A stretch of DNA of 64,000 bases. Source: Hornefia porci. GTDB taxonomy: Bacteria; Bacillota; Clostridia; Peptostreptococcales; Anaerovoracaceae. The position numbers were made by a program, and so were the translations under genes. Below, one piece after another: positions 11,269 to 48,261 of the stretch. The stretch is from contig NZ_MJIE01000001.1 of assembly GCF_001940235.1 (NCBI RefSeq), positions 1,674,001 to 1,738,000 of the forward strand, read 5' to 3'. Each line of letters begins with the position of its first letter. Positions within the stretch are counted from its first letter, which is position 1. The notes beneath the pieces are model-generated. The model saw only the letters and a list, made by a program, of their open reading frames with translations. It had not been told where the DNA came from and made no database searches.

Positions 11269-11332
11269 CGCCCGCCGCACGTGCGGGTCAGAACCGGAAA
11301 AAGCATCCACATCCAATCACGGGAGAAGAAAC

Positions 11333-16820: not shown

Positions 16821-16849
16821 TTGTAATTTTTATTGTTAACCATTATAAT
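16821..16849 (+). promoter_or_regulatory. Promoter of the secreted C39-like protease
   Basis: TTGTAA (16821-16826) and TATAAT (16844-16849) with a 17-base spacer, 80 bases before the start at 16929. The rest of the 303-base divergent gap (16626-16928) contains only GC-rich, weakly repetitive sequence with no other recognisable feature. Confidence 0.6.
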
Positions 16850-16928
16850 AAGGAGACAGGACGCCGCGCGGGTTTCTCCGCGCGCTGTTTCAGAGTATTC
16901 ATCCGGAATCGAAAGAAACGAGGTTGAC

Positions 16929-18299: not shown

Positions 18300-18411
18300 C
18301 GCGCGCTCAGCCGCCGGATTACGCGCTGCGGCACAGATGCACGGCAGGCGCAACAGGCACACGCCGCATACGACAGATGTACGATGAATACGATAACAAT
18401 AACGGACAAAT

Positions 18412-19707
18412 ATGCTGAATAAAATCTGTGATCTGCTGGAGAAAACCGGCAACATCAGAAGAAGTTCCTATCTGTGGAACGCCATAAACGCGATGCTTTC
18501 TGCCCTGCAGAGTCCGGTCATCCTGATGGTGATGACCCGGACCAACGGCGTCTACGACGCCGGGGTCTTCAGCATCGCTTTTGCTGTTGCGAGCCTGATG
18601 CTCTATGTGGGCCTCTACGGTCTGCGTCGTTTCCAGGCCTCGGACATTCATGAAAAATACAGTTTCCAGGAATACCAGGCCATGCGCTTTGTCACCTGCG
18701 GTGCCATGATCGTCGCTTCTGTCGCCTACTGCGTCTACGGTATCGGCTTCAAGGGCTACGGCCCGGAGAAGGCCGCTGTCGTTTTTCTGATGTGCATGCT
18801 GAAGCTGGTGCAGGCCTATACTGATGTCATCCACGGAAATATGCAGCAGAAGGATCGCCTGGATGTGGCCACAAAATGCTCCTCCGTCCGCTATGTCCTG
18901 GAGGTCCTGGGATTAATTGCTGCGCTGGCGGTGACGCATGACCTCCTGCTTTCCAGCATCGTCTGCGTCGCGGTCTCCGTCATCGGAATGATGCTGACGA
19001 CTGTCAACGCCGGCCATCGCTACTGCGAATCCTACCGTCCCTCCATCAGCCGCGGGAAATTCCGCACGCTGCTCATCGACGGCTTCCCCATCTTCATCAG
19101 CCTGTTTCTGAACATGTATATCAGCAACGCGCCGAAATACGCCATCGACGCCTATCTCACAGAAGAAATCCAGGCCGTCTATAATATTATTTTCATGCCC
19201 GCCTTCATGGTCATGCTCATCGCCAACTTCATTTTCAATCCCATTCTGACGTCTTATGCGGAGCTGTGGCTGTCCGGCACCCGCGAAGCCTTCCTCGAGC
19301 TGAACCGCCGGATCCGGCAGCAGCTGCTGCTCGTCCTGGGACTTACTGTGCTCGGTCTTGCAGTCGCATGGACAATCGGCATCCCGATCCTGTCCTGGAT
19401 CTTCGGCGTGGATCTTCACGCCTACCGGATAGAGCTGTGTATCGTCATGATCGGCGGCGGCGCGCTGGCGTACGCCACCTTCTTCAGTACCGTTGTCACG
19501 ATTATCCGTGAACAGAACTTCCTTCTGGTATGCTACGGCATAGCGGCGCTGGCCGCTTTCGTCCTGTCCGGCATCCTTGTCAGAAACCACGGAATCCTGG
19601 GAGCGGCGACCCTGTACGCAGTAATCATGACAATTCTGGCCGTACTGCTGGCAGTCCTGACATTCAAAAAGCTGTCCGACGCCCGCAGAAATCTGCAAAA
19701 CGCCTGA
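18412..19707 (+). CDS. Wzx-like polysaccharide flippase (MOP superfamily)
   Basis: 431 aa with about 12 membrane helices. The N-terminal NIRRSSYLWNAINAMLSALQSPVILMVMTRTNGVYDAGVFSIAFAVASLM and central FPIFISLFLNMYISNAPKYAIDAYL match lipid-linked oligosaccharide flippases of the Wzx/polysaccharide biosynthesis type. The family moves undecaprenyl-linked glycans across the membrane. It precedes two convergent wall-enzyme genes and lies a few kilobases from the glycopolymer locus, which makes a cell-envelope role plausible. Confidence 0.85.
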   Translation: MLNKICDLLEKTGNIRRSSYLWNAINAMLSALQSPVILMVMTRTNGVYDAGVFSIAFAVASLMLYVGLYGLRRFQASDIHEKYSFQEYQAMRFVTCGAMIVASVAYCVYGIGFKGYGPEKAAVVFLMCMLKLVQAYTDVIHGNMQQKDRLDVATKCSSVRYVLEVLGLIAALAVTHDLLLSSIVCVAVSVIGMMLTTVNAGHRYCESYRPSISRGKFRTLLIDGFPIFISLFLNMYISNAPKYAIDAYLTEEIQAVYNIIFMPAFMVMLIANFIFNPILTSYAELWLSGTREAFLELNRRIRQQLLLVLGLTVLGLAVAWTIGIPILSWIFGVDLHAYRIELCIVMIGGGALAYATFFSTVVTIIREQNFLLVCYGIAALAAFVLSGILVRNHGILGAATLYAVIMTILAVLLAVLTFKKLSDARRNLQNA

Positions 19708-19768
19708 CAGCTATAAACATCAGTTTTCTTGTTTCCTTCAGTCAGTTCCTGTCTTTCGGCCTTTCAGC

Positions 19769-20782: not shown

Positions 20783-20869
20783 CGATCTTTCTCACTCCTT
20801 CTGGAAATAACTGCCGTTTCACATAAACATTTACCCCGTTCGCACGGATTGCAGACGCCTCGCCGCAGA

Positions 20870-22462: not shown

Positions 22463-22585
22463 TCCTTTATCTCTCCTTACTGCATCAGTGTGTTCGACTT
22501 CCAGATCACACATGCATCTTCCCTATACTCACTCGCATATATAATGTAGTTTACCATATCGGAGCGGCAATATCAACAAAAAACG

Positions 22586-22762: not shown

Positions 22763-24154
22763 ATGAGACGTATGAGAAATGTTTGTAACGTGAAGAATCA
22801 GAGCAGGCCGGATCTGCTGTATGTCATGATATGTGCCGCGGTTTTTCTGGCTGAAGCTTTTCTGGCCCGGCGCCAGTCAATCCGGTACGGCGGCGGATAC
22901 ATGTCCGACGTGTCTTTGTATGTAAAAATCGCCCGGCGGAATCCCACTCCGACGCGCGCCGTCAACTGGCTGTTCAGCCACCTTATGGATCTGTGCGGAA
23001 ATACACTGGGAATCGCTGTCCTTCTGGGGCTTGCGGTTTCGCTGACGATGGTCGCAAACTACCTGCTGCTGCGCTATCTGTTCTGCAGCCGGTTTTCGGA
23101 AAACGGAGGCAGACTCTCAGGCGCTGGCGCCCCCGGATTCCGGGAAACAGGTACGCCGTTCCCAGAGGCGGGCGATACGGCGACGGGATGCTGTGCAGAC
23201 GCTTCTGCCGACCGGCGGCTTCTGGAGGCAGCCTCTGTCGCAGCTTTGTTCTCCGGCCCCGTCTACATTCCGCATCTGATGCCGTATTTCTACGAGAAAA
23301 CGCTGAGCAAGTACGCCTGGCAGAGTCCGACGCAGATTATGATGATGCCTCTCGCGATACTTGCACTTCTGCTGTTTTTCCGCATCCGGGAGCGATATTT
23401 CCGGCGGATTGCCCCGGGGCAGTGGCTGCTGCTGAGCCTGGCGTTTCTGGCCTCGGCGTGGGCCAAGCCCAGTTTCATCATGATTTTCTATCCGCTGATG
23501 GCGGCGATCCTGCTCCGGGATCTGATTTTCGGCAGGAGGGAATGCGGAAGTGTCGGGAGGCGGTTTCGCAGCGTTCTGATTCTCGGGTGCTCCGCCCTTC
23601 CGGGAATGGTCTATTTTCTCTACCTGAACAAAGCCATGTTCGGCGGTGCTCCGGGAGCCGCCGGCGCGGGCGCTTCAGAAGCGGCCGGAGCTGCCGCATC
23701 GGCCGCCGCCTCCGGCGGAGACGGCAGTGTGATCATCCAGTTCGGTCGGGCCTATTTCAACCAGGACTTCTCCGTTCCTCTGAGCCTTCTGGCCGGTCTT
23801 CTGTTCCCTCTGCTGGTGCTCCTCTTCAACCTTCCGGCCCTGCGTGATATCCGCTATGCCTCCGGATGGCTGCTGCTGCTCATCGGCATCGCAGAGCATT
23901 TCACGTTCAGCGAGACGGGACGGCGAGCCGCTCACGGCAATTTCGCCTGGGGGAAAAAGGCGGGCGCATACCTGCTGTTTCTGCTGAGTATCTGGAAATT
24001 CGCGGAAAACTGGCGGGATCCGCAGTTCCTGCAGCGACGTCCGGGGCTGCGGCGGCTGTACTTCGTTCTGGGGCTTGTGCTGCTGGGGCTTCACGTGGTT
24101 TGCCAGTTGTATTACTTCCAGCTGCTGCTGCGGGGACATCACTACATGATGTGA
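22763..24154 (+). CDS. Polytopic membrane protein of unknown function
   Basis: About 463 aa from ATG 22763; a TTG at 22718 in frame is the alternative, and neither has a strong ribosome-binding site. At least nine hydrophobic segments alternate with Arg-rich cytoplasmic loops. The N-terminal loop RYGGGYMSDVSLYVKIARRNPT and NAWFSHLMD-like region recall GT-C-type membrane glycosyltransferases or polymer-modifying proteins, without a diagnostic motif. Two loops are low-complexity: about residues 105-135 (Gly/Ala/Thr) and an Ala/Gly/Ser run near 290-320. It sits between wall enzymes and the PaaK/CapK-like gene, so an envelope glycan role is plausible but unproven. Confidence 0.65.
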   Translation: MRRMRNVCNVKNQSRPDLLYVMICAAVFLAEAFLARRQSIRYGGGYMSDVSLYVKIARRNPTPTRAVNWLFSHLMDLCGNTLGIAVLLGLAVSLTMVANYLLLRYLFCSRFSENGGRLSGAGAPGFRETGTPFPEAGDTATGCCADASADRRLLEAASVAALFSGPVYIPHLMPYFYEKTLSKYAWQSPTQIMMMPLAILALLLFFRIRERYFRRIAPGQWLLLSLAFLASAWAKPSFIMIFYPLMAAILLRDLIFGRRECGSVGRRFRSVLILGCSALPGMVYFLYLNKAMFGGAPGAAGAGASEAAGAAASAAASGGDGSVIIQFGRAYFNQDFSVPLSLLAGLLFPLLVLLFNLPALRDIRYASGWLLLLIGIAEHFTFSETGRRAAHGNFAWGKKAGAYLLFLLSIWKFAENWRDPQFLQRRPGLRRLYFVLGLVLLGLHVVCQLYYFQLLLRGHHYMM

Positions 24155-24213: not shown

Positions 24214-25503
24214 ATGTTTGAGAATTTGGAAAAGAAGCTGGTCAATCTGCTGATTTTCACGGATCTGGCCAAGATGAAGAAAAAAATCCCGGAGGATTTC
24301 TCCGGAGTCAAAAGAATTCAGGATCGGCGTGTTCGCAGGCTCGTGCGGAAGGCGTACAGGATCCCGTTCTACAAAGAACGGTTCGACGCTGCGGGCGTGA
24401 AGCCGGAGGACATCCGGACCGGTGCGGACCTCACCCGTCTGCCTTTGTTGCATAAGGAAGAGCTGCGCGCCTGGATGAAAGAAGAAGCGAAGAACCCCAG
24501 GTATGACAACTGGTACCACGACACCACCAGCGGATCGTCCGGCGAACCGCTGATGATTCTTCTGTCGCCCAGGGAAAAGGCCTACATGATGGCCAACTGG
24601 TTCCGGGTCATGATGCTGGCAGGCTACAACCCCTTCCTCGGTAAAACCATGAGCCGCAAGAGCGCGCACAGCGTTTCCGCCGGCTACGACACCGCGCTCC
24701 AGCGCCTGGGCATCCTGCGCCGCGGATTTCTGGACCAGTACGCGCCGGAGGAGGAAATGATCCGGCAGGTCAATGAATACAAGCCGGACTTCCTTTACAT
24801 GAATAAAACCGAGCTCATGCGGCTCTGCCTGTACTGCAGACAGCACGGCAGCAAAATATATCAGCCGAGGTTCTTTGTGCCCACCGGAGAAAAAACCGAC
24901 GACATCGCCCGCCGGCTGTTCAAGGAGGTTCTGGGCCCCGGCATCATCGACTCCTACGGAACAGCCGAGACCGGCGCCTGCATGGTGAAGATCGGCGAGA
25001 GCCCGGAGTACGTGGTCCACAACGATTCCTTTGTGGTAAACATCTACGACGACAACGACCGGCCGGCCGACGACGGCAAGATCGTGGTGACACCGCTGTA
25101 CAAGACCGACCTGCCGCTGATTAATTACTCCATCGGCGACAAAGCCACATCCGTGACCCGGAACGGCGTCCGGTTCATCACCGGCGTGCAGGGCAGAATG
25201 AACGATTTCTTCCGGTACGAGACCGGAGAAGTCACCACATTCTTCGAAATCGCGCCCATCATCGCTCACTGCACCGACATCCTGCAGATCCGCTTCATCC
25301 AGGAATCCTACGATATGATCCGGATCCAGTGCGTCTATAACAAAGAAGAATCCGAACGCACCAGAGATGAAGTAGCCGCACAGCTCACCGCGGATCTGAA
25401 CAGAAAATTCAAGCACCCCTTCCGAATCGAGTACGACTGGATGGACTCCATTCCGCCGGACGAGAACGGCAAGCTTCGGATGATTGTCTGCAAGGTAAAA
25501 TAG
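24214..25503 (+). CDS. PaaK/CapK-like adenylate-forming enzyme
   Basis: 429 aa. Motifs of the phenylacetate-CoA ligase/CapK family: RLPLLHKEELRAWM, the ATP loop DTTSGSSGEPL, YMNKTELM, DSYGTAETGACM, and the hinge NYSIGDKATSV followed by GVQGRMNDFF. In polysaccharide loci such enzymes activate acids for transfer to sugars; in catabolic settings they form CoA esters. No paa genes are nearby, and flippase and membrane genes are, so the envelope alternative is favoured (inference). A TATAAT at 24202-24207 lies so close to the ATG that the transcript could be nearly leaderless. Confidence 0.85.
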   Translation: MFENLEKKLVNLLIFTDLAKMKKKIPEDFSGVKRIQDRRVRRLVRKAYRIPFYKERFDAAGVKPEDIRTGADLTRLPLLHKEELRAWMKEEAKNPRYDNWYHDTTSGSSGEPLMILLSPREKAYMMANWFRVMMLAGYNPFLGKTMSRKSAHSVSAGYDTALQRLGILRRGFLDQYAPEEEMIRQVNEYKPDFLYMNKTELMRLCLYCRQHGSKIYQPRFFVPTGEKTDDIARRLFKEVLGPGIIDSYGTAETGACMVKIGESPEYVVHNDSFVVNIYDDNDRPADDGKIVVTPLYKTDLPLINYSIGDKATSVTRNGVRFITGVQGRMNDFFRYETGEVTTFFEIAPIIAHCTDILQIRFIQESYDMIRIQCVYNKEESERTRDEVAAQLTADLNRKFKHPFRIEYDWMDSIPPDENGKLRMIVCKVK

Positions 25504-34302: not shown

Positions 34303-35514
34303 TCACGCCTCCCCGGCTACCCTGATATCGATATGCTCCAGAGCCTGATGGAGTTTCTCCACGGCAGCCCCCAGCGTATCGCCCTTTGTAATCACATGAC
34401 CGATGCGGTGAGGTCCTACCCGGAAGGCGTGAACGCTGTCTCCGGGCGCATAATCGAACTGAATCTGTACGATGTCCGGGTCTGACGGATCGTTGCGGTT
34501 TTCCTGTGACAAAATCACCCCGTCTCTGTCGCTGGTGAGCAGCATGCTGGCGTTCGGCGTCAGCCGCGGTCTGCCGGAATCGTCCTTTATCGCCCGGAAG
34601 TCCACATGCTCTCCCAGCGCGACGCGGAGGATCTTCTCATAGTAATCGAAGCCGTAATAGATGGAAACCAGCTCCGCAAGACAGGTCGCGCCGGAACGCC
34701 CGCCCAGCTCCAGCACATAGGTTTTGCCGTCACGCATGATGAAATCGGCGTTGATGGCGCAGTTGTCCAGCTTCATGGCTGCGATGGCCTTCTCCAGCTG
34801 CTCCCGGACGTCCGGAGCGCATGCGCGGTCTGTTTCAAACGGCGCATAATGACCCACCGGCACGCCGGTGTCTCCTCTGAACACGTAGTCGCCGTGAGGA
34901 AGAATGAACTCCACCTTTCCGTCCTGTACAAAGGCCTGTGCACCGAACTCATCTCCTTCAATGAATTCCTCTGCGATGAAATAGTCGGACCGGGTATTTT
35001 CCAGCGCGTTATGCCGGGCCTCCCGGAAATCCGCCGGCGAGTCCACCCGTGTGATTCCCCGGCTGCCAGAGGAATCCACCGACTTGAAAATCAGAGGAAA
35101 CTCCAGTCCCTCCAGCAGTTCCTCATAATCTTCCCGTGCGAAGGGAATCTTGCGGAACCGGGCGGTCCGTACCCCGTATTCCTCATAGCGGGACTTCATG
35201 GCCAGTTTGTTGGATGCGATTTCCGCGGCCTCTGCGGAAAGCCCTCTCAGCCCCAGCGCATCGCATACCCGGCCGATAGTGATCACCGCCACGTCAGTTC
35301 CGGCAGTGACGATGCCGTCAACATTCTCTTCCCGGGCAATCTTCAGAATCGCCTCGTGATCCACTGTGTTCTCATAGCAGACCTTGTCCGCCAGCGGAAA
35401 TCCGGGGTAGTTTCCGGGTATGCTGGCCACGATGGTGTACAGGCCCATGCGCTTTGCCGCGCGGATCAGAGGAACCTGATAGATCCCCGCTCCCAGAATC
35501 AGTATCTTCTTCAT
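34303..35514 (-). CDS. ATP-grasp family ligase
   Basis: 403 aa. N-terminal Rossmann-like start KKILILGAGIYQVPLIRAAKRMGL, then the ATP-grasp core: SNKLAMKSRYEEYGV, PLIFKSVDSSGSRGITRV (glycine-rich loop with Lys), DYFIAEEFIEGDEFGAQAFV, INADFIMRDGKTYVLELGGRSGATCLAEL (metal-binding Glu and Asn-like positions). Such enzymes ligate a carboxylate to an amine or thiol with ATP. The start overlaps the stop of the GT2 gene (ATGA), so they act together. In this locus, acylation or aminoacylation of the sugar made by WecE is an attractive role (inference). Confidence 0.85.
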   Translation of the reverse strand: MKKILILGAGIYQVPLIRAAKRMGLYTIVASIPGNYPGFPLADKVCYENTVDHEAILKIAREENVDGIVTAGTDVAVITIGRVCDALGLRGLSAEAAEIASNKLAMKSRYEEYGVRTARFRKIPFAREDYEELLEGLEFPLIFKSVDSSGSRGITRVDSPADFREARHNALENTRSDYFIAEEFIEGDEFGAQAFVQDGKVEFILPHGDYVFRGDTGVPVGHYAPFETDRACAPDVREQLEKAIAAMKLDNCAINADFIMRDGKTYVLELGGRSGATCLAELVSIYYGFDYYEKILRVALGEHVDFRAIKDDSGRPRLTPNASMLLTSDRDGVILSQENRNDPSDPDIVQIQFDYAPGDSVHAFRVGPHRIGHVITKGDTLGAAVEKLHQALEHIDIRVAGEA

Positions 35515-36617
35515 TTCCGTACGTCCTTTCCCGCGGGCGCCGCGGCGGCCGCGCCGCCTGTGTCATGCTTTGTCGCGGCGGCAGCTGTGTGATTCGTGCT
35601 ACCGTCAGCCACGCGCTCTGCGGCAGCTTCTCCGCGCTCCGTGCCGGCCGCGGCAGCTGCGCCGCCCGTGTCGTTCTTTGTCGCGGCGGCCTCTCCGCCT
35701 GTATAGATATTCCGCACCACGAACTGCGGATTGTTGCTCATTGTCAGGAACATCCTGCCGATGTACTCACCGATAAGCCCCAGGAACATCATGATTACGC
35801 CGGAGAAAAAGAATATGGCGCACATCATGGACGACCAGCCCACGGCGGTAGACGGGAGCATCAGCTTGCGGATGAACACGACGATCGCCCCGATGAGACC
35901 TGCCGCCGCGATTACCGCGCCGAACCGTGTGGCGATCCGCAGCGGTACAATGCTGTAGCCCATGATGTTGGACCAGAGCCCCAGAAGCTTTTTCAGCGTG
36001 TAGCCGGACGTGCCGTAGGCGCGGTCGAAGTGCTTAATCGGCACACAGGAGATATTCCGCGTGGTCCGCAGGAACAGCCCCTGAAGATGAGTGTACCGGC
36101 TTTTGTACTGGATGATATAGTCCCGGACGAATCCGCGGATAATCCAGAAGCTGGAGGTCTTCATGTCCTTCGGCTTGCCGATCAGAATCCGCACTGACAT
36201 ATAGTTTACCCAGCTGCCGAAGTTCCTGAAGCCGGAGTGTTTCTTCTCCGGGTAGTAGCCGTATACGATATCGAAGCCTTTGTCAAACTCCTCGAACAGA
36301 ATCGGAAGCTGTGAGGGATGGGTCTGCATGTCGTCGTCCATCCCGATGAGCACGTCGCCCTCCGCGTAATTCAGCCCCGCCATAATCGCGTTATGCTGTC
36401 CGCTGTTCATGGCGAGCTCCACCACCTTCACAAAGTCGTAGTCGTCCGCCAGCGCCCGCAGCTCGCAGACGGTCTCTCCCCCGTCCGGAGAATAGTCGTC
36501 CACAAGGACGAACTCAAAGGGCGTCCGCCCGATTTCCGTCATCTTCTCTGCCGTCAGCTCCACCACCTGACGGATGGTGTGGGACGATTTATAGCATGGA
36601 ATTACAATCGAATACAT
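35511..36617 (-). CDS. GT2 glycosyltransferase of the CsbB/ArnC type (polyprenyl-phosphate sugar synthase)
   Basis: 368 aa. The GT-A domain begins MYSIVIPCYKSSHTIRQVVE with VLVDDYSPDGG and the DxD-like GMDDDMQTHPSQLP; two C-terminal membrane helices follow (FGAVIAAAGLIGAIVVFIRKL and MCAIFFFSGVIMMFLGLIGEYIGR). This is the layout of enzymes that load a sugar onto undecaprenyl phosphate. The last about 60 residues are Ala/Gly/Thr-rich with TKNDTGGAAAAA and TKHDTGGAAAAA, a 108-base duplication in the DNA. Divergent from wecE; the ATP-grasp gene overlaps downstream. Confidence 0.9.
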   Translation of the reverse strand: MYSIVIPCYKSSHTIRQVVELTAEKMTEIGRTPFEFVLVDDYSPDGGETVCELRALADDYDFVKVVELAMNSGQHNAIMAGLNYAEGDVLIGMDDDMQTHPSQLPILFEEFDKGFDIVYGYYPEKKHSGFRNFGSWVNYMSVRILIGKPKDMKTSSFWIIRGFVRDYIIQYKSRYTHLQGLFLRTTRNISCVPIKHFDRAYGTSGYTLKKLLGLWSNIMGYSIVPLRIATRFGAVIAAAGLIGAIVVFIRKLMLPSTAVGWSSMMCAIFFFSGVIMMFLGLIGEYIGRMFLTMSNNPQFVVRNIYTGGEAAATKNDTGGAAAAAGTERGEAAAERVADGSTNHTAAAATKHDTGGAAAAAPAGKDVRK

Positions 36618-36694
36618 ACCTTCATTCCTTACCGCGGCCCGCGGCCGCCTTAGATTTCATACCATCAATTATACACGAAAATAACAGAAATTCA

Positions 36695-36723
36695 ATGATT
36701 TTGCCCTCTGCTTATGGTATAAT
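36695..36723 (+). promoter_or_regulatory. Extended -10 promoter of the glycopolymer operon
   Basis: TATAAT at 36718-36723 is preceded by TGG, an extended -10 element; the -35 (TGATTT, 36695-36700, 17-base spacer) is weak. It lies in the divergent region between the GT2 gene and wecE. Confidence 0.55.
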
Positions 36724-36784
36724 GGACATGACCTCTGCACAGGTCGCCATCACTGAAACAAAGGACATTCTAAAGGATATTTTC

Positions 36785-37921
36785 ATGCATATTAAATTCA
36801 ACGTACCACCATATACCGGCAGAGAGAAGGAAGCCATCTGCCGGGCCATCGACAGCGGAAAAATCTGCGGCGACGGCGAATTCACAAGGAAATGCAGCGA
36901 CTGGCTGAAGGAGCAGACCGGATCTCCCGGAGTTCTCCTGACCACCTCCTGCTCCTCCGCCCTCGAGATGGCGGCTCTTCTGGCGGACATTCAGCCGGGA
37001 GACGAAGTGATTCTCCCCTCCTATACCTTTGTATCCACCGCCAACGCATTTGTTCTCCGGGGAGCGCGCCTGGTGTTCGTGGACATCCGGCCCGACACGA
37101 TGAACATCGACGAGACGCTGATTGAGGACGCGGTCACGGAGAAGACCCGCGCCATCGTTCCGGTTCATTACGCCGGCGTAGGATGCGAGATGGACGTCAT
37201 CATGGACATCGCCCGCCGTCACAGCCTGAAGGTGGTGGAAGACGCGGCCCAAGGCGTCATGGCCTTCTACCGGGGCAGGGCTCTGGGAACCATCGGAGAC
37301 TACGGCTGCTTCAGCTTCCATGAAACCAAGAATTACAGCATGGGCGAGGGCGGCGCGATTCTGATCCGCAGCGATGAGGATCTGGAGCGGGCGGAAATCG
37401 TCCGGGAGAAGGGCACCGACCGCAGCCGTTTCCTGCGGGGCCAGGTGGACAAATATTCCTGGGTGGACGTGGGCTCCTCCTATCTCCCCAGCGAGCTGAA
37501 CGCGGCCTATCTGTATCCGCAGCTTCTGCTGGCAGAGGAGATCAACCGTGACCGTCTGACAAGCTGGAATCGCTATTACACGATGCTCAAACCCCTTGAG
37601 GACAGCGGCCGCATACGGCTTCCGTACATTCCGGACGAGTGCCGGCACAACGCCCATATGTTCTATCTGAAAACCGCGGATCTGGAGGAGCGCACGGCGC
37701 TGATCCGGTATCTGGGAGAACGGGAGATTTCCGCGGTGTTCCACTATGTACCCCTGCATTCCGCCCGGGCGGGCCGGAAATTCGGCCGGTTCCACGGCGA
37801 GGACCGATATACCACAAAGGAAAGTCAGCGGCTCGTAAGACTGCCGATGTATTACGGACTGAGCGAAGAGAACATTGAGGTAGTGACGGATGCAATCAGA
37901 AGCTTTTATCAATCCCGATAA
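36785..37921 (+). CDS. wecE: dTDP-4-amino-4,6-dideoxygalactose transaminase (WecE/RffA-like)
   Basis: 378 aa from ATG 36785 with AAAGGA 8 bases upstream. A DegT/DnrJ/EryC1-type PLP enzyme: FNVPPYTGREKEAICRAIDSGKICGDGEFTRKC is diagnostic of the WecE branch; TTSCSSALEMAALL, PSYTFVSTANAFVLRG, VVEDAAQGV and the PLP-Lys in FSFHETKNYSMGEGGAI follow. WecE converts dTDP-4-keto-6-deoxyglucose (the RmlB product) into dTDP-4-amino-4,6-dideoxygalactose (Fuc4N) with glutamate as amino donor. Length is the family norm. It overlaps the YfhO gene by 32 bases, indicating coupled translation. Confidence 0.92.
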   Translation: MHIKFNVPPYTGREKEAICRAIDSGKICGDGEFTRKCSDWLKEQTGSPGVLLTTSCSSALEMAALLADIQPGDEVILPSYTFVSTANAFVLRGARLVFVDIRPDTMNIDETLIEDAVTEKTRAIVPVHYAGVGCEMDVIMDIARRHSLKVVEDAAQGVMAFYRGRALGTIGDYGCFSFHETKNYSMGEGGAILIRSDEDLERAEIVREKGTDRSRFLRGQVDKYSWVDVGSSYLPSELNAAYLYPQLLLAEEINRDRLTSWNRYYTMLKPLEDSGRIRLPYIPDECRHNAHMFYLKTADLEERTALIRYLGEREISAVFHYVPLHSARAGRKFGRFHGEDRYTTKESQRLVRLPMYYGLSEENIEVVTDAIRSFYQSR

Positions 37922-40790
37922 CGCGGCAGAAAACCGTTCTGCCTTCAGGAAGCAGTTTCTCCTCTACACCCTGCTGTTCATCATTACGGCGCTGGGAGTC
38001 TACCTCTGCTTCCTGTATTTTCATGTGACCTTCCTGCGGACCAACCACGGGAACTTCGACGGCATCGCCCAGACCTACCCGGCCTACGCCAGCATCCGGG
38101 AATACTTCGCCGCCCTGTTCTCTGGAAACGGGAAGGGCTTCTGGTCCTGGAGCCTCGGCCTGGGCGACGATTACTTTGAACTGCTGAAAAGCAAGCTGGC
38201 CAACCCTCTGACCTGGCTGATCGTGGCGGTGCCGGAGAAGTATCTGGACGTGGCCTACGACCTGGTCACGGTCTTCCGCCAGTACCTTGCCGGCGTTGCC
38301 TTCCTGTTCTTCGCCCGGGAGGTCTCTCTGAACGGGAGCCAGCGGGTCGCCGGAGCTCTCTGCTATACCTTCTCAGGCTGGATGATCACCGCCGCCGGCG
38401 CACAGGGTGCTTTCCTGAACGCGGCAGTCGTGCTTCCCCTCCTGATCATGGGCGCGGAACGGCTCCTGAAGGGGAAATCCCCTCTCCTGTTCATCCTTTC
38501 CGTCTTTCTGTTTTTTGTATCCGGCGTGACGTGGACATATGTGGGAGGCATCACCGCCGTCCTGTATTTTGTGCTCCGCTACTTTCATTACAACAAAGGA
38601 AAGGGCCCCGGCGCATTCCTGCGCTCTGCCGGCTATTACTGTATCTGCGGCGTCGCGGGGATATTAATATCCTCCGTCTTCGCCTTCTCCATGGTGCTGT
38701 CGCTGTCCGACGCAACCACGAGCGCCGCCTACGAGCCTCATACCGTCGTGTACACGCTGAAGGCCTATCTGAACTGGCTGCTGTCGTTCACGTCCATTGC
38801 CAGAACCAGCACCTACTACACCTACCTGTATATGCCGATTCTGTGCGTGATGGTTCTGCCCCTCGCGGTAAAGAACATCCGCCGGGGAAGCACCGCCGCC
38901 GTCATGGCCGGGATCCTCTTCATCGCGTCGTTCTTCCCGGTGACCGGAAAATTTTTCAACGGCTTCAGCTACAGCGTGGGGCGCTGGTTCTTCGTGCTGG
39001 TGTTCTTCCTGGTCTGGGCCGCCGTCGAAACGCTCGGACAGGAGGATTTCACCTCTAAACGGGGACTCCGCCTCATGGCTCTCTGGCTGGCTTTTCTCGG
39101 CGTCTGGAACATCGGCGTCTGTTATCTGTGGCTGAAAATCGCGGCGCTGAACGACGTCTGCGCCACCGCGGTCAGCCTTCTGTTCGGATTCCTGATTCTC
39201 CTCTGCCTCCGGCTCTGGAAGCACACGGACTTTCTGCACCGGCTCACGGAACGCCGCAGAAAACGGCTGCTGGGTGCCGCTGTGATTCTGCTGACTATGA
39301 TCAGCGTCATGGGCGCGGAGAATTTCAATGTCTTCCCCTGGTTCAGCGATTCGCTGTACTATTACGCCAGGGTGGGCGGCATCCGCGAAAACTTCGCTCA
39401 GTCCACCCAGAAGGCCGCTCAGACGCTGCAGCGGCAGGACTCCTCCTTCTTCCGCACCGACCAGGTGGACGGCAACAACGACACCCGCGTGGCGCGTGTT
39501 CAGGCCAACGAGAACCTGTATTTCGGGAACCGTTCTGTCTATATGTACTTCTCGACCATCAGCCGCAGGTGGCTCCTGTTTAACAAAGCCATGGGCAACA
39601 ACGCCGGATACTTCGACCGAACCACCAGTTTCTCCAACGACAACCGAGCCGCTCTGGATCTGCTGATGGGCGTGAAATACTTCCTCGGGGACAGCAGCAC
39701 CAAACGCCCGGGAGCCTCGGACTACGCTCCCTTCGGCTTCACCTATGACCGCACGGTCGATGGAGTACAGGTCCTGAAAAGCCGGTACTCCATCGGTCTC
39801 GGAACCACCTTCTCCGGCTACATCACTGAGTCGGAGCTGATGAAGTATCCGCCCCTTGTGCGGGAACAGGTTCTGCTGCAGGCTGCGGTCGTTCCCGACG
39901 AATCTGTCTCACAGGTCCGGGGACTGACTCATCTGAAGGCCTCCGACATCAGAACGTCCATCCGCTCCCTGGACTACCGGATCCGGAACGAGAAAAACCT
40001 GACTGTCCGGAAGTCTTCTATGACGGTGAAGGGCCGCGGAGGCAGCTTCACCATTGACGTTCCCCGGAGCGCGGACGCCGCGAACTGCCAGCTGGTTCTG
40101 TCCTTCCGGGGACTGACCCGCCGAACCAATACCTATGAGGAACGGGAACGGCTGGCCGGACGCTCCGGCAGCGCCGTCACCCTTACCGACAAAATCAGCC
40201 GGGTATCCTTTGTCGACGACGAAGCCTTCACCATCTATGCCTCCAAAGGCCTCGTGGAGAAGGACGCCATGTACCGGAAGGGGAAGAATCAGGCTCTGAC
40301 GGACATCGACGACTACAACATCAACCTTGGCTATTACAAAGACGCCTCCGGGCAGATTCACATCCGCATTGACAATCTGGGAGAATACAGTTTCCGGAGC
40401 CTGAAGGTCTACGCCGTTCCGATGGATGTCTATCAGGAGAACGCGCCGAAGCTGCAGCAGAACCGCTACCGCATCACCGGCTTCACCAATGACCGTGTGA
40501 AGGGAACGGTAAATGCGCAGAAGGACTCCGTCCTCTTCCTGTCCATCCTGGACAACCCCGGCTGGAAGGTCCGCATCGACGGAAGGCCGGTATCGAAAAT
40601 CCGGGACACCGACCTGGCCTTCACCGGAGTACGGGTAAGCGCCGGAAAACACACCGTGGAGCTGCGGTACAGTCCGGTGGTGCTTCGCCCCGCCGCGCTG
40701 TTGACAATTACCGGCATTCTTGCCATAATCATTATCGAGGTTCTGCGCAGGAGGCGCGGGGCGCGGAATAAATATTTTGTCGCGAAGTAA
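37890..40790 (+). CDS. yfhO: YfhO-family membrane glycosyltransferase
   Basis: 966 aa. The N-terminal half has about 12 membrane helices with [32 protein letters not shown] and [22 protein letters not shown], typical of YfhO; the C-terminal half (from about 470) is a large outer domain with a final helix ([19 protein letters not shown]). YfhO is the GT-C enzyme that moves a sugar from undecaprenyl phosphate to lipoteichoic acid in Bacillus and Staphylococcus together with CsbB and GtcA. Here a CsbB-like GT2, Fuc4N-forming enzymes and an LtaS-like protein are adjacent. Confidence 0.9.
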
Positions 40791-40803
40791 GGAGTTATCA
40801 TTT

Positions 40804-41676
40804 ATGAAAGGAATTGTTCTTGCCGGCGGAAAAGGCACCCGGCTCTATCCCATGACCCGGGCCGTATCCAAGCAGCTTCTGCCGATTTACGACAAACCGC
40901 TGATCTATTATCCGATCTCTGTGCTGATGCTGGCGGGGATCCGGGACATTCTGATAATCTCGACGCCGGAGGACATCGGCGCTTACGAAGAGCTCCTGGG
41001 CGACGGCAGCAGGCTGGGGCTGAATTTCAGCTACCGGATTCAGGAGAAGCCCCGGGGGCTGGCGGACGCTTTCATCATCGGCGCGGACTTCATCGGCAAT
41101 GACCGTGTATGTCTGGTGCTGGGCGACAACGTCTTCTACGGTCAGGATTTCACCCGGCTTCTGAATATGGCCAAAGAACACCGGGAGGGCGCAGCAATCT
41201 TCGGCTACCCGGTACGGAATCCCCGGGCGTTCGGCGTGGTGGAATTCGATGAGAACCATAACGTCATTTCCATCGAGGAAAAGCCGGAAAACCCCAAAAG
41301 CAGCTTCGCGGTTCCCGGACTGTATTTCTACGACAATGACGTCGTCCGCATCGCGAAGGAGATCCGCCCCTCAGCGCGGGGCGAGCTGGAAATCACTTCC
41401 GTCAACAACGCCTATTTGGAGGCGGGCCGGCTGAAGGTGATACTGATGGGGCGGGGTATGGCGTGGCTGGACACCGGCACGCCGGAAGGAATGCTGAAGG
41501 CCGCCCAGTTCGTGGAGGCGGTTCAGTCGCGGCAGGGCTTCTACATCTCCTGCCTGGAGGAAATCGCCTGGCGCAGGGGATTCATCAACGATGCGGAGCT
41601 GCGCGCCATCGGAGAAAGTCTGAGCATGACCGACTACGGCCAGTACCTTCTGTCCCTGCCGGATGCGAACGTGTAG
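40804..41676 (+). CDS. rmlA: Glucose-1-phosphate thymidylyltransferase
   Basis: 290 aa from ATG 40804 (AAGGAG 9 bases upstream). [46 protein letters not shown] is the nucleotide-binding signature; [25 protein letters not shown] and [10 protein letters not shown] follow, ending LPDANV. It makes dTDP-glucose from glucose-1-phosphate and dTTP, the entry to the pathway that continues with RmlB and WecE. The length matches short RmlA enzymes. Confidence 0.96.
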
Positions 41677-41724
41677 AGGCCGCCGTGAACGCATACGGCC
41701 GGATGCAATTGCATGGAGCGGCTG

Positions 41725-41760
41725 CGAACATCGCCGAACATCGCCGAACATGCCGAACAT
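41725..41760. repeat. Short tandem repeat between rmlA and rmlB
   Basis: CGAACATCGC is repeated, with the last units losing bases (CGAACATCGC, CGAACATCGC, CGAACATGC, CGAACAT), in the 100-base gap before the rmlB ribosome-binding site. Confidence 0.7.
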
Positions 41761-41776
41761 ATTGAAGGAGAAAGAC

Positions 41777-42796
41777 ATGCATATATTAGTAACCGGAGGG
41801 GCCGGTTTTATCGGCTCCAATTTTATTTTTTATCTGGCGGAACATCATCCGGACTGGCAGATCACCTGTCTGGACAAGCTCACCTATGCAGGGAACCTGG
41901 AAACGCTGGACTCCGTCAGGAACAAAGCCGGATTTGACTTTGTCCGGGGAGACATCGCCGACCGTGATTTTGTAAATGACTTATTCAGTCAGGGGCACTT
42001 CGACATTGTCGTCAACTTTGCTGCGGAATCTCACGTGGACCGCTCCATCGAAGACCCCGGCGTCTTCCTGAAGACAAATGTCCTGGGTACGCAGGTTCTG
42101 ATGGACGCCTGCCGCCGGTCGGGGATCCGCCGGTTCCACCAGGTGGGCACCGACGAGGTATACGGCGATCTGCCGCTGGACCGGCCCGATCTGTTCTTCA
42201 CGGAGACCACTCCGCTGACCGCCTCCAGCCCGTATTCCGCCAGCAAGGCCTCGGCGGATCTTCTGGTCATGGCCTATCACCGGACCTACGGGCTGCCGGT
42301 CACCATCAGCCGCTGCTCGAACAACTACGGTCCCTGGCAGTTTCCGGAAAAGTTGATTCCGCTGATGATCATCAACGCCCTCTCTGACAAAGCGCTGCCC
42401 GTCTACGGAACCGGGCAGAATGTCCGGGACTGGCTGTATGTGGAGGATCACTGCAAAGCCATTGACCTCATTCTGACAGACGGACAGGACGGCGAGATAT
42501 ACAACATCGGCGGTCACAATGAGAAGTCCAATCTGGAGGTGGTGAAAACGATTCTCCGCCGGCTGAACAAGCCGGAGAGCCTGATTACCTTCGTCAGCGA
42601 CCGCAAAGGCCACGACCTGCGCTACGCCATCGATCCGGCCAGAATCAGCCGGGAGCTGGGCTGGCTGCCGGACACCCGGTTCGAGGACGGAATCCGCCGC
42701 ACCATCGACTGGTACCTGGAGAACCGCCCCTGGTGGGAGCATATCGTCAGCGGCGACTACCGTCAATACTACGAGAAGATGTACCGCGGCCGGTGA
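41777..42796 (+). CDS. rmlB: dTDP-glucose 4,6-dehydratase
   Basis: 339 aa from ATG 41777, with GAAGGAG 6 bases upstream. Extended short-chain dehydrogenase: NAD loop TGGAGFIGSNF, AAESHVDRSI, GTDEVYGDL, catalytic SPYSASKASADL (Tyr-x-x-x-Lys) and SNNYGPWQFPEKLIP. It forms dTDP-4-keto-6-deoxyglucose, the substrate of WecE. No rmlC or rmlD is present in the window, which argues against dTDP-rhamnose and for an amino sugar as the local product. Confidence 0.96.
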   Translation: MHILVTGGAGFIGSNFIFYLAEHHPDWQITCLDKLTYAGNLETLDSVRNKAGFDFVRGDIADRDFVNDLFSQGHFDIVVNFAAESHVDRSIEDPGVFLKTNVLGTQVLMDACRRSGIRRFHQVGTDEVYGDLPLDRPDLFFTETTPLTASSPYSASKASADLLVMAYHRTYGLPVTISRCSNNYGPWQFPEKLIPLMIINALSDKALPVYGTGQNVRDWLYVEDHCKAIDLILTDGQDGEIYNIGGHNEKSNLEVVKTILRRLNKPESLITFVSDRKGHDLRYAIDPARISRELGWLPDTRFEDGIRRTIDWYLENRPWWEHIVSGDYRQYYEKMYRGR

Positions 42797-42886
42797 CGAC
42801 GGCCTGCGTGGCGAGGAGGACTCGGCGAACGGCAGGTTCGCAGCCGGCAGATCTGCAGCTTCGGGAGAGACGACATCCAGCGAGTT

Positions 42887-42998
42887 CGCGAACGGGCTGC
42901 AGCCGGCGGCGACCGGGACAATGTCCGGCAGATCCGCGAACGGGCTGCGGCCGGCGGCGAGAGGGACAATGTCCGGCAGATCCGCGAACGGGCTGCGC
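42887..42998. repeat. 48-bp tandem repeat, about 2.3 copies
   Basis: CGCGAACGGGCTGC begins at 42887, 42935 and 42983 (exact 48-base period). The unit also contains GGGACAATGTCCGGCAGATC. A more diverged partial unit lies before it (42840-42886), including GGCAGATCTGCAGCTTCG at 42846, which reappears almost unchanged inside the downstream LTA-synthase gene at 45570. The array fills the 274-base gap between rmlB and that gene. Confidence 0.8.
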
Positions 42999-43070
42999 GG
43001 CGAGGCGACGAGCAAATTTAAGTGATATAGAACGTGATACAGGAATAGAAGGAAAGGAAATACTGTTTTT

Positions 43071-46000
43071 ATGAAAGCAATTCTGAAGGAAATCCGTGTC
43101 AAAAAAGTCATTTCAATTGTACTGCTGATTTTATGCTGCCTGTTTCTTATCTATGAAATCGACAGCATGCGCTATCCGCTGACGTACCTGTATAATGTGC
43201 GCTATGCAGAAGGAACCTCCTACAATTTAGCTAAGAAGGTCCTTCCTCTATCTGTTCTCGAGAACAAGACTGACCCCACGAAACGCGACTACAGCAAGCT
43301 GGACAAAATCAGCGGAAACAACGACGACCTCATTTCCTACTACCTTCGCAGACCGCACACCGATTACGTCAGACTGAAGGGGTCGCAGACCATCCGGCAG
43401 ACCTTTGTGGCTAAAGATGACAAAATCAAGCGCCTTCAGTTATTCTTCCACAACCCCGGCAGCACTTCCACCGCGGGACGCCTCACCGTCTCCGTGCTGG
43501 ACAGCGACGGGAACAAAATCTGTTCCTCCTCCCTCTCCGCGGGGCTGACTCTCAACGACACGCTGACTGCCTTCGACTTCACCCAGGACTCCACAGCGGT
43601 AAACGCCAACCGCGTGGCAGGCAGCAAGGTCTCCGCCAAAACCTCGGACGGATACTCCCTGAAAAAGGGTGAGCGTTATACGATACAGATTAAAGGCGAC
43701 GGGGTACGGGCTTCCTCCGGCTCTGTTTTCGGAATCTATCTGGCAAAAGGAACCTACTCTGGGGCTGAGCTCACCGTCGACGGAAAGAGCTTCGGTAAGA
43801 CGCAGCTACTCTGCGGCGTCAACTACCTGCATTTGTCGAAAACTCTGCTGTACTTCTTCTTCGGCTGTATGCTCATCGCACTGCTGCTGATTCTGCTGCC
43901 GCTGAACCATATCAGCGAAGTGCTGCGCCGCCGCGTGAAGAACGAAAAATGGCGGGAGCGCATCGATGTGAACCGGGCCGTCTCCAGGCTCATGTTCGTC
44001 ATCACGCCCTTCTTCTGCTACTGGCTGGTGCAGAAGTCAGACGGCAAAGGCCTGCGGACCATCTTCCGTCTTAAAAATATATTCTTTGACTTCGACGGGC
44101 TGATGACTATCACGATTTTAATTATGATCATGGCGATTTTCTATCTGATTTTCAACCGGACGCAGATCGCCTCACTGCTGACCACGTTCCTGACCTTTGC
44201 CTTCTGCATGGCGAACTATTTCCTGATTCTGTTCCGGAACGACCCGTTAATCGCCACGGATTTCAGTTCCATCGGCACAGCTATGGACGTTGCGGCAAAT
44301 TATACGATCTCCTTCAGCAAACGGTCTCTCTGGCTTATCGTCATGACCCTGGTTTTCCTGGCGCTGGTACTCTCGCTGAAAAGCGTCCGTGGCCTGCGGC
44401 TCCGCTACCGGGCCGTGCTTCTGGTGGCCTGCGGACTCTGGGGCGGCTGGTTCTACGGCGTGGTGCTGAACACCAACTTCCTGAACCAGCACGGCGTGTT
44501 CGTCTCCGGCTTCAACGCGAAAGGCGGTTACCACCGCCACGGATCTGTAGTAGGCTTTGTATACACCGTAAAAAACTCCCGGATCGAGAAGCCCTCCGGC
44601 TACTCCGTGAACAAAGTGAAATCCATCGCGTCGAAGTACACCTCTGACACCACGGACGGCTCCGCGACGGTCTCAAAGAAAACGCCTAACATCATCGTCA
44701 TCATGGACGAGGCCTTCGCTGATTTCAGCCTGGTAGGAAATGTGCAGACTTCAGGCGACTACCTGCCCTTCTACCACAGCCTGAAAAAGAACACCGTCAA
44801 GGGCGTCCTGTACCCCTCGATTTTCGGCGGCCGCACGGCCGACACAGAGTTCGAATGCCTGACGGGCAACAGCATGCAGTTCTACCCGCTGAACGCTGTG
44901 CCGTATAACACGAATATCCGCAGCAAGATGCCCTCCCTGGCCTACGCTCTTGAAGCTCAGGGGTACCGGGGCAATATCGCCTTCCACCCCGGCGTCCGGA
45001 CCTCCTACAACCGGAACCGCGTCTACCCGCTGCTGGGATTCGAGAAGTACATCTCTCAAGAGAATCTGAAGGATCCGGAGAAGATCCGGGCCTATATTTC
45101 CGATGAGGAGGATTTCCGTCAGATCCGCAGAAGCTACGAGGCGTACAAAGGAAAGGGCAGCTCTGCTCCGTTCTTCATGTTCAATGTCACCATTCAGAAT
45201 CACAGTGACTTCAAGCTTACCAGCGGCTATGTGGAAAAGGAGGTCACCGTCACCGACGGCAGCCTGGCCGACGAGCAGACCGAACAGTACATCAATCTGG
45301 CCAAAAAGACAGACGAGGCCCTGAAGAACCTGATCACCTACTTCCGGAACACCGACGAGCCGACGATGATCGTCCTCTTCGGCGACCACGAGCCCCACGT
45401 CGGCGCCACCTTCTACGACACCCTGAAGGAACGCATGACCGGCGCCTCCGATGTAGAAAAACAGCTCTGCAAATACAAGGTGCCCTTCATGATCTGGACC
45501 AACTACGACAACGACTACGCCTCAAAAATCACCACCTACGCGGCGTCAGCTTCGGATGGGACGGCGCACGGCAGATCCGCAGCTTCGAGTGGGTCCACGA
45601 GCGCCGGAAAGTCCACCAACGGCAAGTCCGCGGGCGCCGGAAAGACCGCAGCTTCGGGCGGGACGACGAGCGCCGGAAAGTCCACGAGCGCAAAGTCCAC
45701 CGGCGCCGAAAAATCCGCGAACGCGAGCGGTGCAGCAACCGCAACCGCCGCAAAATCGGCCGCCAATAACGCAGCCGGCGACACCGATGGACTACAGATC
45801 AGCGCCAACTACATCGGCCCATATATCCTGAAACTAATCGACGGAAAAATGACCGGCTACGACAAGTATCTGCTCTCTCTGCAGAAAAAGGTTCCCGTCA
45901 CAAGCGCCGTTGCCTACATGGGCGACAACGGGAAATTCTACTCCGCAACTGCCGGCAGCAAATACCGCAAATACCTGAATCAGTACCACATTCTTCAGTA

Positions 46001-46073
46001 TAACAATACCGTCGATACAAAAAACAGAGTGAACGATTTCTTCTATCTGAAGAATAAAAGTAACAAGAAGTGA
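43071..46073 (+). CDS. LTA synthase family protein (sulfatase fold) with jelly-roll and low-complexity insertions
   Basis: 1000 aa, versus about 650 for typical LtaS. One N-terminal helix (VISIVLLILCCLFLIYEI), then an extracellular beta domain (about 65-240, LTVSVLDSDGN...GERYTIQIKGDG) like a carbohydrate-binding jelly roll, five further helices (about 262-480), and the sulfatase-fold catalytic domain from about 540. There PNIIVIMDEAF gives a metal ligand, GGRTADTEFECLTG the nucleophile Thr and VLFGDHEPHVG metal ligands. Between IWTNYDNDYASKI and ISANYIGPYIL, about residues 825-903, sits an Ala/Ser/Gly/Lys/Thr-rich insertion with AGKST units. It should polymerise glycerol-phosphate-like units outside the membrane. 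Confidence 0.9.
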   Translation: MKAILKEIRVKKVISIVLLILCCLFLIYEIDSMRYPLTYLYNVRYAEGTSYNLAKKVLPLSVLENKTDPTKRDYSKLDKISGNNDDLISYYLRRPHTDYVRLKGSQTIRQTFVAKDDKIKRLQLFFHNPGSTSTAGRLTVSVLDSDGNKICSSSLSAGLTLNDTLTAFDFTQDSTAVNANRVAGSKVSAKTSDGYSLKKGERYTIQIKGDGVRASSGSVFGIYLAKGTYSGAELTVDGKSFGKTQLLCGVNYLHLSKTLLYFFFGCMLIALLLILLPLNHISEVLRRRVKNEKWRERIDVNRAVSRLMFVITPFFCYWLVQKSDGKGLRTIFRLKNIFFDFDGLMTITILIMIMAIFYLIFNRTQIASLLTTFLTFAFCMANYFLILFRNDPLIATDFSSIGTAMDVAANYTISFSKRSLWLIVMTLVFLALVLSLKSVRGLRLRYRAVLLVACGLWGGWFYGVVLNTNFLNQHGVFVSGFNAKGGYHRHGSVVGFVYTVKNSRIEKPSGYSVNKVKSIASKYTSDTTDGSATVSKKTPNIIVIMDEAFADFSLVGNVQTSGDYLPFYHSLKKNTVKGVLYPSIFGGRTADTEFECLTGNSMQFYPLNAVPYNTNIRSKMPSLAYALEAQGYRGNIAFHPGVRTSYNRNRVYPLLGFEKYISQENLKDPEKIRAYISDEEDFRQIRRSYEAYKGKGSSAPFFMFNVTIQNHSDFKLTSGYVEKEVTVTDGSLADEQTEQYINLAKKTDEALKNLITYFRNTDEPTMIVLFGDHEPHVGATFYDTLKERMTGASDVEKQLCKYKVPFMIWTNYDNDYASKITTYAASASDGTAHGRSAASSGSTSAGKSTNGKSAGAGKTAASGGTTSAGKSTSAKSTGAEKSANASGAATATAAKSAANNAAGDTDGLQISANYIGPYILKLIDGKMTGYDKYLLSLQKKVPVTSAVAYMGDNGKFYSATAGSKYRKYLNQYHILQYNNTVDTKNRVNDFFYLKNKSNKK

Positions 46074-46780: not shown

Positions 46781-46815
46781 TTCAACACTTTACCGTTATA
46801 AATCGCTTCCGAATG

Positions 46816-46833
46816 TATAATTGTATTTATAAT
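46816..46833 (+). promoter_or_regulatory. Candidate promoter of the 2-oxoacid oxidoreductase operon
   Basis: Two TATAAT boxes, 46816-46821 and 46828-46833, lie about 90-100 bases before the first gene; the -35 regions are weak. Confidence 0.4.
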
Positions 46834-46920
46834 GTTTTTTCCGCGGGCGGCATCTTCATTTGTGATATATTCAGTACAGAAACCTTATCATTCATCAGAG
46901 TTGAAGGAGAAACGAGGAAA

Positions 46921-47115
46921 ATGCTAAAAGGAAAAAAACTATGCACAGAGCCCGAGTGGTGCAAGGGCTGCGGCTACTGTGCGGAGTTCTGTCCCAAGAA
47001 AGTGCTGATAATACGGCAGGAAAAAGTTGTCGTCGAAAACCCTGACGACTGCATATGCTGCGGCCTCTGCGAACAGCGGTGTCCGGATTATGCAATCTGG
47101 GTAGAGGAGGCGTAG
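46921..47115 (+). CDS. korD: 2-oxoacid:ferredoxin oxidoreductase, ferredoxin (delta) subunit
   Basis: 64 aa with two [4Fe-4S] motifs, CKGCGYCAEFCP and CICCGLCEQRCP. Start ATG 46921, with GAAGGAG and AGGAAA upstream. In this enzyme family the ferredoxin-like subunit passes electrons from the thiamine diphosphate centre to free ferredoxin. First gene of a four-gene operon in the order delta, alpha, beta, gamma, 2 bases before the alpha gene. Confidence 0.9.
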   Translation: MLKGKKLCTEPEWCKGCGYCAEFCPKKVLIIRQEKVVVENPDDCICCGLCEQRCPDYAIWVEEA

Positions 47116-47117
47116 AG

Positions 47118-48260: not shown

Positions 48261-48261
48261 T

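Follow-up and report, generated by a model that had tools for sequence, protein, structure and literature searches.

The subject of this work is a 64,000-nucleotide stretch of the Hornefia porci contig NZ_MJIE01000001.1 (the window, to which all coordinates refer unless a locus is named), which belongs to a 2.8 Mb genome closely related to Hornefia butyriciproducens. In and around the interval 34303..46073, we observed a real, conserved set of genes, which we read as a module for transmembrane glycosylation of a polymer with a probably acylated amino-deoxyhexose. The interpretation that we favour, with fair confidence, is that N-acylated 4-amino-4,6-dideoxygalactose (Fuc4N) is built, loaded on undecaprenyl phosphate (C55-P), flipped and put on a surface polymer, in a route that resembles the Arn pathway and uses Gram-positive parts. 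The relevant features are the following (scores are given as bits obtained/cut-off).

18412..19707, plus strand: Wzx-type flippase, outside the earlier interval (PF01943, 24.9 bits vs. a cut-off of 28.2)
22763..24154, plus strand: membrane protein without family, candidate second GT-C transferase, start codon uncertain
24214..25503, plus strand: PaaK/CapK-like AMP-forming ligase that recurs with the module in other loci, likewise outside the earlier interval
34303..35514, minus strand: ATP-grasp ligase, 403 residues, ATP-grasp_4 and LAL_C2 domains (PF13535, 38.7/27; PF18603, 54/29.4)
35511..36617, minus strand: GT2 polyprenyl-phosphate-sugar synthase of ArnC/CsbB/PgfS type (Pfam, NCBIfam and PDB comparison)
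36785..37921, plus strand: WecE, dTDP-4-amino-4,6-dideoxygalactose transaminase (NF008687, 625/375; TIGR02379, 621/435)
37890..40790, plus strand: YfhO family GT-C-type membrane glycosyltransferase, 966 residues (PF09586, 314 bits)
40804..41676, plus strand: RmlA, glucose-1-phosphate thymidylyltransferase (TIGR01207, 467/361)
41777..42796, plus strand: RmlB, dTDP-glucose 4,6-dehydratase (TIGR01181, 488/365, scanned from 41768)
43071..46073, plus strand: GacH/LtaS-type sulfatase-fold phosphoglycerol transferase, 1000 residues, with a long N-terminal part (PF00884)

The GT2 and ATP-grasp genes lie on the minus strand, and WecE diverges from them on the plus strand together with YfhO, RmlA, RmlB and the sulfatase-fold gene. 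An earlier note on this DNA had assigned seven genes to 34303..46073, and all of them were located there by open reading frames (ORFs) and by Pfam and NCBIfam models. Its gene set overlooked the linked flippase, the AMP-forming ligase and perhaps the membrane protein at 22763..24154, which lie 9-16 kb outside that interval.

WecE is a full-length match above the curated cut-off of both models, and its nearest solved chains are the WecE-type transaminases 4piw/4zah (E 1.4e-166). The ArnB model remains below its cut-off on this protein (182/631 bits), which identifies the enzyme as WecE and not ArnB. According to the established chemistry of these families, RmlA and RmlB would convert glucose-1-phosphate to dTDP-4-keto-6-deoxyglucose, and WecE would aminate the latter to dTDP-Fuc4N; with all three proteins above curated cut-offs, this prediction, already present in the earlier note, is well supported. 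The absence of RmlC, claimed there for the locus, extends to the whole genome, where PF00908 gave 0 matches, while the same search was positive in 11 of 14 control genomes. As for RmlD, only RmlB cross-matches its models (PF04321, 45 bits; TIGR01214, 38/224 bits) among the seven locus proteins, to which this search was confined.

The best PDB match of the GT2 is ArnC (E 5e-37), followed by the GtrB-type sll0501 (7e-30); both are C55-P-sugar synthases. The protein carries two hydrophobic C-terminal segments (membrane segments were counted here and below by a crude hydrophobicity scan). Strong homology to ArnC and GtrB, together with these segments, indicates a putative GT-A enzyme that makes a C55-P-sugar. 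It had been described as a CsbB-type GT2; the assignment to polyprenyl-phosphate-sugar synthases holds, and what escaped notice is its closeness to ArnC, the nearest solved relative. A long low-complexity stretch rich in Ala/Thr occupies the GT2 C-terminus (window ~35514-35690).

The ATP-grasp and GT2 genes, both on the minus strand, have an overlap of 4 bases, in agreement with the coupling claimed for this pair. The ligase has the domain pair of the L-amino-acid ligase family (ATP-grasp plus LAL_C2), and its nearest solved chain is 4dim (entry name phosphoribosylglycinamide synthetase), followed by BacD and BL00235, both of which are L-amino-acid ligases. Of the 24 NCBIfam models listed for it, none reaches its cut-off. 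Residues K103, K144, E269 and R273 are invariant across 38 aligned sequences. The ligase is the obvious candidate for acylation of the 4-amine, considering that no acetyl- or formyltransferase was found by Pfam and NCBIfam among the seven locus proteins. On the basis of family and linkage, we propose that it may acylate the 4-amino group of dTDP-Fuc4N with a carboxylic acid, possibly an amino acid. Loci L019, L030, L026, L032 and L050 hold, in one stretch with the main pair, further GT2/ATP-grasp pairs that have diverged (ATP-grasp identity 30-45%); in L019 and L030, two ATP-grasp genes flank one GT2.

A scan seeded with the ATP-grasp ligase, using one genome per species, gave 159 confirmed relatives, and the counts of loci reported in this work use the best 80 of these 159. 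They come mostly from Lachnospiraceae and other Clostridia of gut and rumen, and include Anaerobutyricum hallii DSM 3353 (L065); the copy of Hornefia butyriciproducens strain WCA-MUC-591-APC-3H (L016) is 99% identical to the ATP-grasp of the window. Since many of the 80 loci end at contig edges, absences in them are weak. Neighbour clusters were built by a simple longest-ORF picker that retained antisense ORFs, and clusters c10, c32, c38 and c41 were removed before counting. GT2 was found in 78 loci, YfhO in 44, WecE in 33, RmlA in 13 and RmlB in 9, and two Wzx-like flippase clusters in 33 and 24, respectively. A same-strand GT2 adjoins 84 of the 89 ATP-grasp copies in these loci, including 7 of 9 diverged paralogues. 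When whole genomes were searched for WecE (those of 50 of the 80 loci; the other 30, mainly short or similar loci, were left out before any result), it scored above the cut-off in 49/50, and the 50th contained only a contig-edge fragment; among 14 control genomes, E. coli alone was positive.

Co-occurrence was then measured in a sample of 297 genomes of the order, with thresholds of E <= 1e-60 for ATP-grasp and AMP ligase, E <= 1e-20 for YfhO and the model cut-off for WecE. ATP-grasp was found in 18 genomes, WecE in 32, AMP ligase in 21 and YfhO in 59. WecE was present in 16/18 genomes with ATP-grasp vs. 16/279 without it (p 7e-16, a value that overstates independence), AMP ligase in 15/18 vs. 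6/279, and YfhO in 16/18 vs. 43/279. Moreover, WecE accompanied AMP ligase in 20 of 21 genomes, and all four genes occurred together in 13. The 18 positives include four with an ATP-grasp of only 39-46% identity (G225, G312, G335 and G351); in the 14 with identity >= 59%, WecE was present in 13, AMP ligase in 13 and YfhO in 14. A genome of the same genus (G009) has ATP-grasp, GT2, WecE and YfhO in the layout of the window.

In three loci from three other families (L109, L110 and L111), genes for a GT2 and a WecE-like transaminase share an operon with a downstream ATP-grasp of 23-27% identity; in L111 an RmlB-like gene precedes them. The L110 transaminase passes NF008687 (407/375 bits) but not TIGR02379 (331/435 bits), and the L110 GT2, which is nearest to ArnC, is without the C-terminal part. 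The recurrence of such operons in three distant families suggests that the transaminase, the GT2 and the ATP-grasp ligase have long worked together as a unit. The proposed comparison with related genomes shows a grouping that exceeds chance (80 loci, genome profile and distant operons), and the link between the ATP-grasp ligase and this amino sugar is supported by WecE in the searched genomes and by these operons. Near the distant operons lies a membrane protein, about 500 residues long, that resembles a GT-C enzyme; its L110 copy matches no family. In L110, the genes after the operon (10264-12937) encode an ABC importer whose binding protein is of SsuA/NMT1 type, and similar genes occupy the same place in L109 (4837-7299) and L111 (9581-10525); this importer might bring in the acid to be ligated.

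The AMP-forming ligase at 24214..25503 shares 85% identity with the product of the gene that immediately follows ATP-grasp in L017 and has relatives in about 59-60 of the 80 loci. In all 15 genomes having both genes, ATP-grasp and AMP ligase are on one contig within ~23 kb, and in the same-genus genome G009 they are likewise ~17 kb apart. An L-lactate dehydrogenase gene is present in 13 loci and adjoins the AMP ligase in 9 of them; the others are L030 and L067, where the two genes lie apart, and L038 and L057, where no AMP ligase was seen. A PanE-like gene stands directly after the AMP ligase in 5 loci. A 2-hydroxy-acid dehydrogenase beside the AMP ligase in some lineages is a hint at a hydroxy-acyl cap. 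Examples of L-lactate dehydrogenase or PanE-type reductase genes are seen at L067 14173-15135 and L049 14143-15078.

As for the membrane partners, the YfhO protein, predicted by the earlier note and matched by PF09586, is the sole YfhO match of the genome and has 11 hydrophobic segments; its presence in nearly all ATP-grasp genomes (16/18) supports it as the likely GT-C partner. The flippase at 18412..19707 has relatives beside or near ATP-grasp in 24/80 loci, the best full-length copies being 52-65% identical, and the L023 relative passes the Pfam cut-off. By homology, the system appears to have a linked flippase of Wzx type. A linked GtrA flippase was rejected: the single match in the genome is unlinked, ~134 kb before the window, beside a tyrosyl-tRNA synthetase-like gene. 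Small EamA proteins with weak, below-cut-off similarity to ArnE/ArnF adjoin a paralogous GT2 or WecE in few loci (clusters c36 and c37, in 5 loci each by one count and in 4 and 3 by another), and diverged copies may be missed, since they were counted by cluster only. The protein at 22763..24154, which has relatives in 6/80 loci at E <= 1e-10, with 29-36% identity over the main segments, is possibly a second GT-C-like transferase.

Beyond dTDP-Fuc4N, the acyl group, the order of the steps and the acceptor are matters of inference, as the earlier note also held for all later steps. Once the ATP-grasp ligase has acted, the GT2 would move the sugar to C55-P and, by analogy with known systems, the Wzx-type flippase would turn the lipid-linked sugar outward and YfhO would transfer it to an extracytoplasmic polymer. 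Its linkage suggests that the AMP-forming ligase may contribute a second acyl activation to this product, and in this lineage glycerol phosphate may be added by the GacH-like enzyme. That acylation precedes the GT2 step is suggested, short of proof, by the Arn pathway, in which formylation of the amine comes before the action of ArnC. A more far-reaching version, for which we hold only tentative expectations, is that the two ATP-dependent ligases, acting in turn or side by side, extend the amine of a C55-P-linked amino-deoxyhexose into a short tag of acyl or aminoacyl nature for wall polymers of gut Clostridia, and that this is widespread.

Several observations weigh against the favoured route. 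WecE and YfhO lie within the fetched stretch in only 33 and 44 of the 80 loci, respectively. The ArnC equivalog model gives the GT2 145/529 bits, far under the cut-off, although ArnC is its best PDB match. The flippase of the window is itself under the Pfam cut-off, and it could serve another polymer. In the 38 kb fetched from G009, no match was found for the flippase, RmlA or RmlB. The 18 ATP-grasp positives of the profile fall in 4 of 135 genera, so that its tests are not independent. Among them, G265 lacks a WecE above the cut-off while having the other three (ATP-grasp, AMP ligase and YfhO), and G335 has a 39% identical ATP-grasp with none of WecE, AMP ligase and YfhO. Conversely, the same-genus genome G005 (88% complete) lacks a close ATP-grasp although GT2 (76%), WecE (69%), YfhO and AMP ligase are there; only a 27% identical relative lies 6 kb away. 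ATP-grasp may therefore be replaceable or lost in places. In G005, the GT2 is followed by relatives of clusters c34 and c59, which resemble MBOAT and SGNH-type proteins; such an arrangement, with these genes in place of ATP-grasp after the GT2 orthologue, is seen at L114 3308-6748 in a same-genus genome.

The identity of the polymer was considered starting from the sulfatase-fold gene, which begins 274 bases past RmlB. The earlier note counted it as LtaS-like, included it in the cast of the module and read the locus as one in which the sugar decorates lipoteichoic acid (LTA) made by this adjoining enzyme. Its position fits such a reading, and a 2021 review (PMC8035078) ascribes the glycosylation of LTA in B. 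subtilis and S. aureus to CsbB/YfhO pairs. The same text, however, also has CsbB/YfhO acting on wall teichoic acid in Listeria. The solved relatives found for the enzyme are GacH (5wcx, E 1.4e-21, the nearest), LtaP (1e-9) and VP1736, with LtaS not among them, and the LtaS equivalog model gives 49/970 bits, below its cut-off. The second sulfatase-fold enzyme found in the genome likewise has GacH as its closest solved relative, LtaS following at 2e-10; LTA is therefore not accepted as the shown polymer. In addition, the gene is linked in only 2/80 loci and has no match in the 38 kb of G009, where the membrane protein at 22763..24154 likewise has none. For this reason it was rejected as a core part of the module, and we regard it as accessory and lineage-specific. 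Finally, some of the 80 related loci carry genes of wall-teichoic-acid type, namely Glyphos_transf (20), TagD-like (9), TagG-like (8) and two LCP clusters (12 and 11). Of these, Glyphos_transf, the cytidylyltransferase and one LCP cluster were checked with Pfam; the TagG-like and second LCP clusters are putative assignments. Seven Glyphos_transf matches occur in the genome itself, of which six lie at 976-997 kb. Taken together, decoration of LTA by an adjoining LtaS-like enzyme seems unlikely; a teichoic or other secondary wall polymer is more likely than LTA specifically, which remains one candidate and is not favoured. A replacement of D-alanylation was also considered and rejected: DltD was present in 2/18 ATP-grasp genomes vs. 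69/279 others (Fisher p 0.26, not significant), and the genome under study has DltD. The sulfatase-fold protein contains a long low-complexity stretch rich in Ser/Ala/Gly/Lys (window ~45530-45790).

The match to GacH raises a different explanation, to which we give a slightly better chance than to the one just discussed while still holding it doubtful. Here GT2, Wzx flippase and GT-C would add a side-chain amino sugar to a secondary wall polysaccharide, as in the group A carbohydrate, and the GacH-like enzyme would then add glycerol phosphate. In the review, GacI serves as the GT-A enzyme, GacK as the Wzx-type flippase and GacL as the GT-C enzyme (PMC8035078), and GacH is the nearest solved relative of 43071..46073. 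Without RmlC in the genome, however, there is no dTDP-rhamnose route to a rhamnan; moreover, since both sulfatase-fold enzymes of the genome are nearest to GacH, the match may mean just "phosphoglycerol transferase", and this gene is no conserved companion of the module. It is also conceivable, though rather improbable, that the sugar enters the repeat unit of a Wzx/Wzy capsule and is not a C55-P monosaccharide. The two Wzx-type flippase clusters (33 and 24 of 80 loci) and multi-pass membrane proteins without family that could be polymerases (c16 in 13 loci, c46 in 7) are compatible with this, as is the Fuc4N predicted in a Clostridium butyricum capsule (PMC12342839). On the other hand, the GT2 belongs with the ArnC/GtrB C55-P-sugar synthases, and no Wzy or initiating transferase was noticed among 26 representatives of neighbour clusters (14 of them family-scanned), which were not searched systematically. 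A protein acceptor, as with PgfS/PgfM2 or flagellin glycosylation, appears the least probable. GT2 and YfhO do match the PgfS and PgfM2 models, far under the cut-off, and Fuc4N is predicted on flagellin of two C. butyricum strains (PMC13317340), but no flagellin was noticed among the same 26 representatives, again with no systematic search.

The favoured route, in which acylated Fuc4N passes through C55-P to a surface polymer, may be compared with known systems. The Arn pathway (ArnB, ArnA, ArnC, ArnEF and ArnT) places 4-amino-4-deoxy-L-arabinose (Ara4N) onto lipid A. ArnB, formylation by ArnA, ArnC, ArnEF and ArnT find their parallels in WecE, ATP-grasp, GT2, flippase and YfhO. A pyridoxal-phosphate 4-aminotransferase and an ArnC-like C55-P-sugar synthase are common to both, as would be an N-acylated amino sugar and external transfer by a GT-C enzyme, which for the module are proposals. 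Unlike the Arn pathway, the module has dTDP-Fuc4N in place of UDP-Ara4N, ATP-grasp (with the AMP ligase) in place of the ArnA formyltransferase, a Wzx-type flippase, YfhO in place of ArnT and a Gram-positive host, and no ArnD was seen among its scanned locus proteins. The enterobacterial common antigen uses RmlA-RmlB-WecE-WecD, and its synthesis of dTDP-Fuc4N is the same; in contrast, WecD is absent from the seven locus proteins, and a C55-P-sugar GT2 stands in place of lipid-III assembly by WecF. As in CsbB-GtcA-YfhO and related transmembrane systems, the module has a GT2 with membrane segments, a flippase and a YfhO GT-C, but its amino-deoxyhexose has its own pathway and two ligases. The sugars added by multi-component transmembrane glycosylation are given as galactose, glucose, N-acetylglucosamine or unknown in Table 1 of the 2021 review, which also proposes GacK, a Wzx-type flippase, as a substitute for GtcA (PMC8035078). 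With GacI-GacK-GacL-GacH of group A Streptococcus, the module shares GT2, Wzx-type flippase, GT-C and a GacH-type phosphoglycerol transferase; it differs in the sugar, in the ATP-grasp ligase and in a genome without RmlC for a rhamnan. BacD and BL00235 share the ATP-grasp fold and LAL_C2 with the module ligase, which is distant from them and, unlike them, linked to sugar genes.

Our literature searches, which covered largely papers outside subscription, found no paper combining ATP-grasp with WecE and nothing on dideoxygalactose with teichoic acid in Clostridia, and at the level of titles and abstracts no description of this gene set; for Fuc4N together with lipoteichoic acid they gave one review, on acyltransferases. 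Fuc4N on Clostridium surfaces is not a new prediction, considering those published for a capsule with TagGH (PMC12342839) and for flagellin (PMC13317340) of C. butyricum; the ligase-GT2-YfhO set is new, so far as these searches show. If the proposed route is correct, gut Clostridia, Anaerobutyricum hallii included, would have in an acylated amino-deoxyhexose and its dedicated ligase a further means to alter their surface charge, which might bear on antimicrobial peptides, phages and recognition by the host. The route would also be the Gram-positive analogue of the aminoarabinose tagging of lipopolysaccharide known from Gram-negative bacteria, and would suggest a function for two ligase families that had none assigned here, including the family of the solved chain 4dim.

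As for the rest of the window, no known RNA motif was detected within the 64 kb at the gathering threshold. Between and beside the split parts of the module (16833-22513) lie genes for an fn3-containing protein, a G5-NlpC/P60 protein and a YkuD L,D-transpeptidase, and the YkuD cluster is also found in 24/80 related loci. Directly past the locus (46813-49637) there are four genes, the ferredoxin part of which was family-scanned and which together resemble a 2-oxoacid:ferredoxin oxidoreductase operon.

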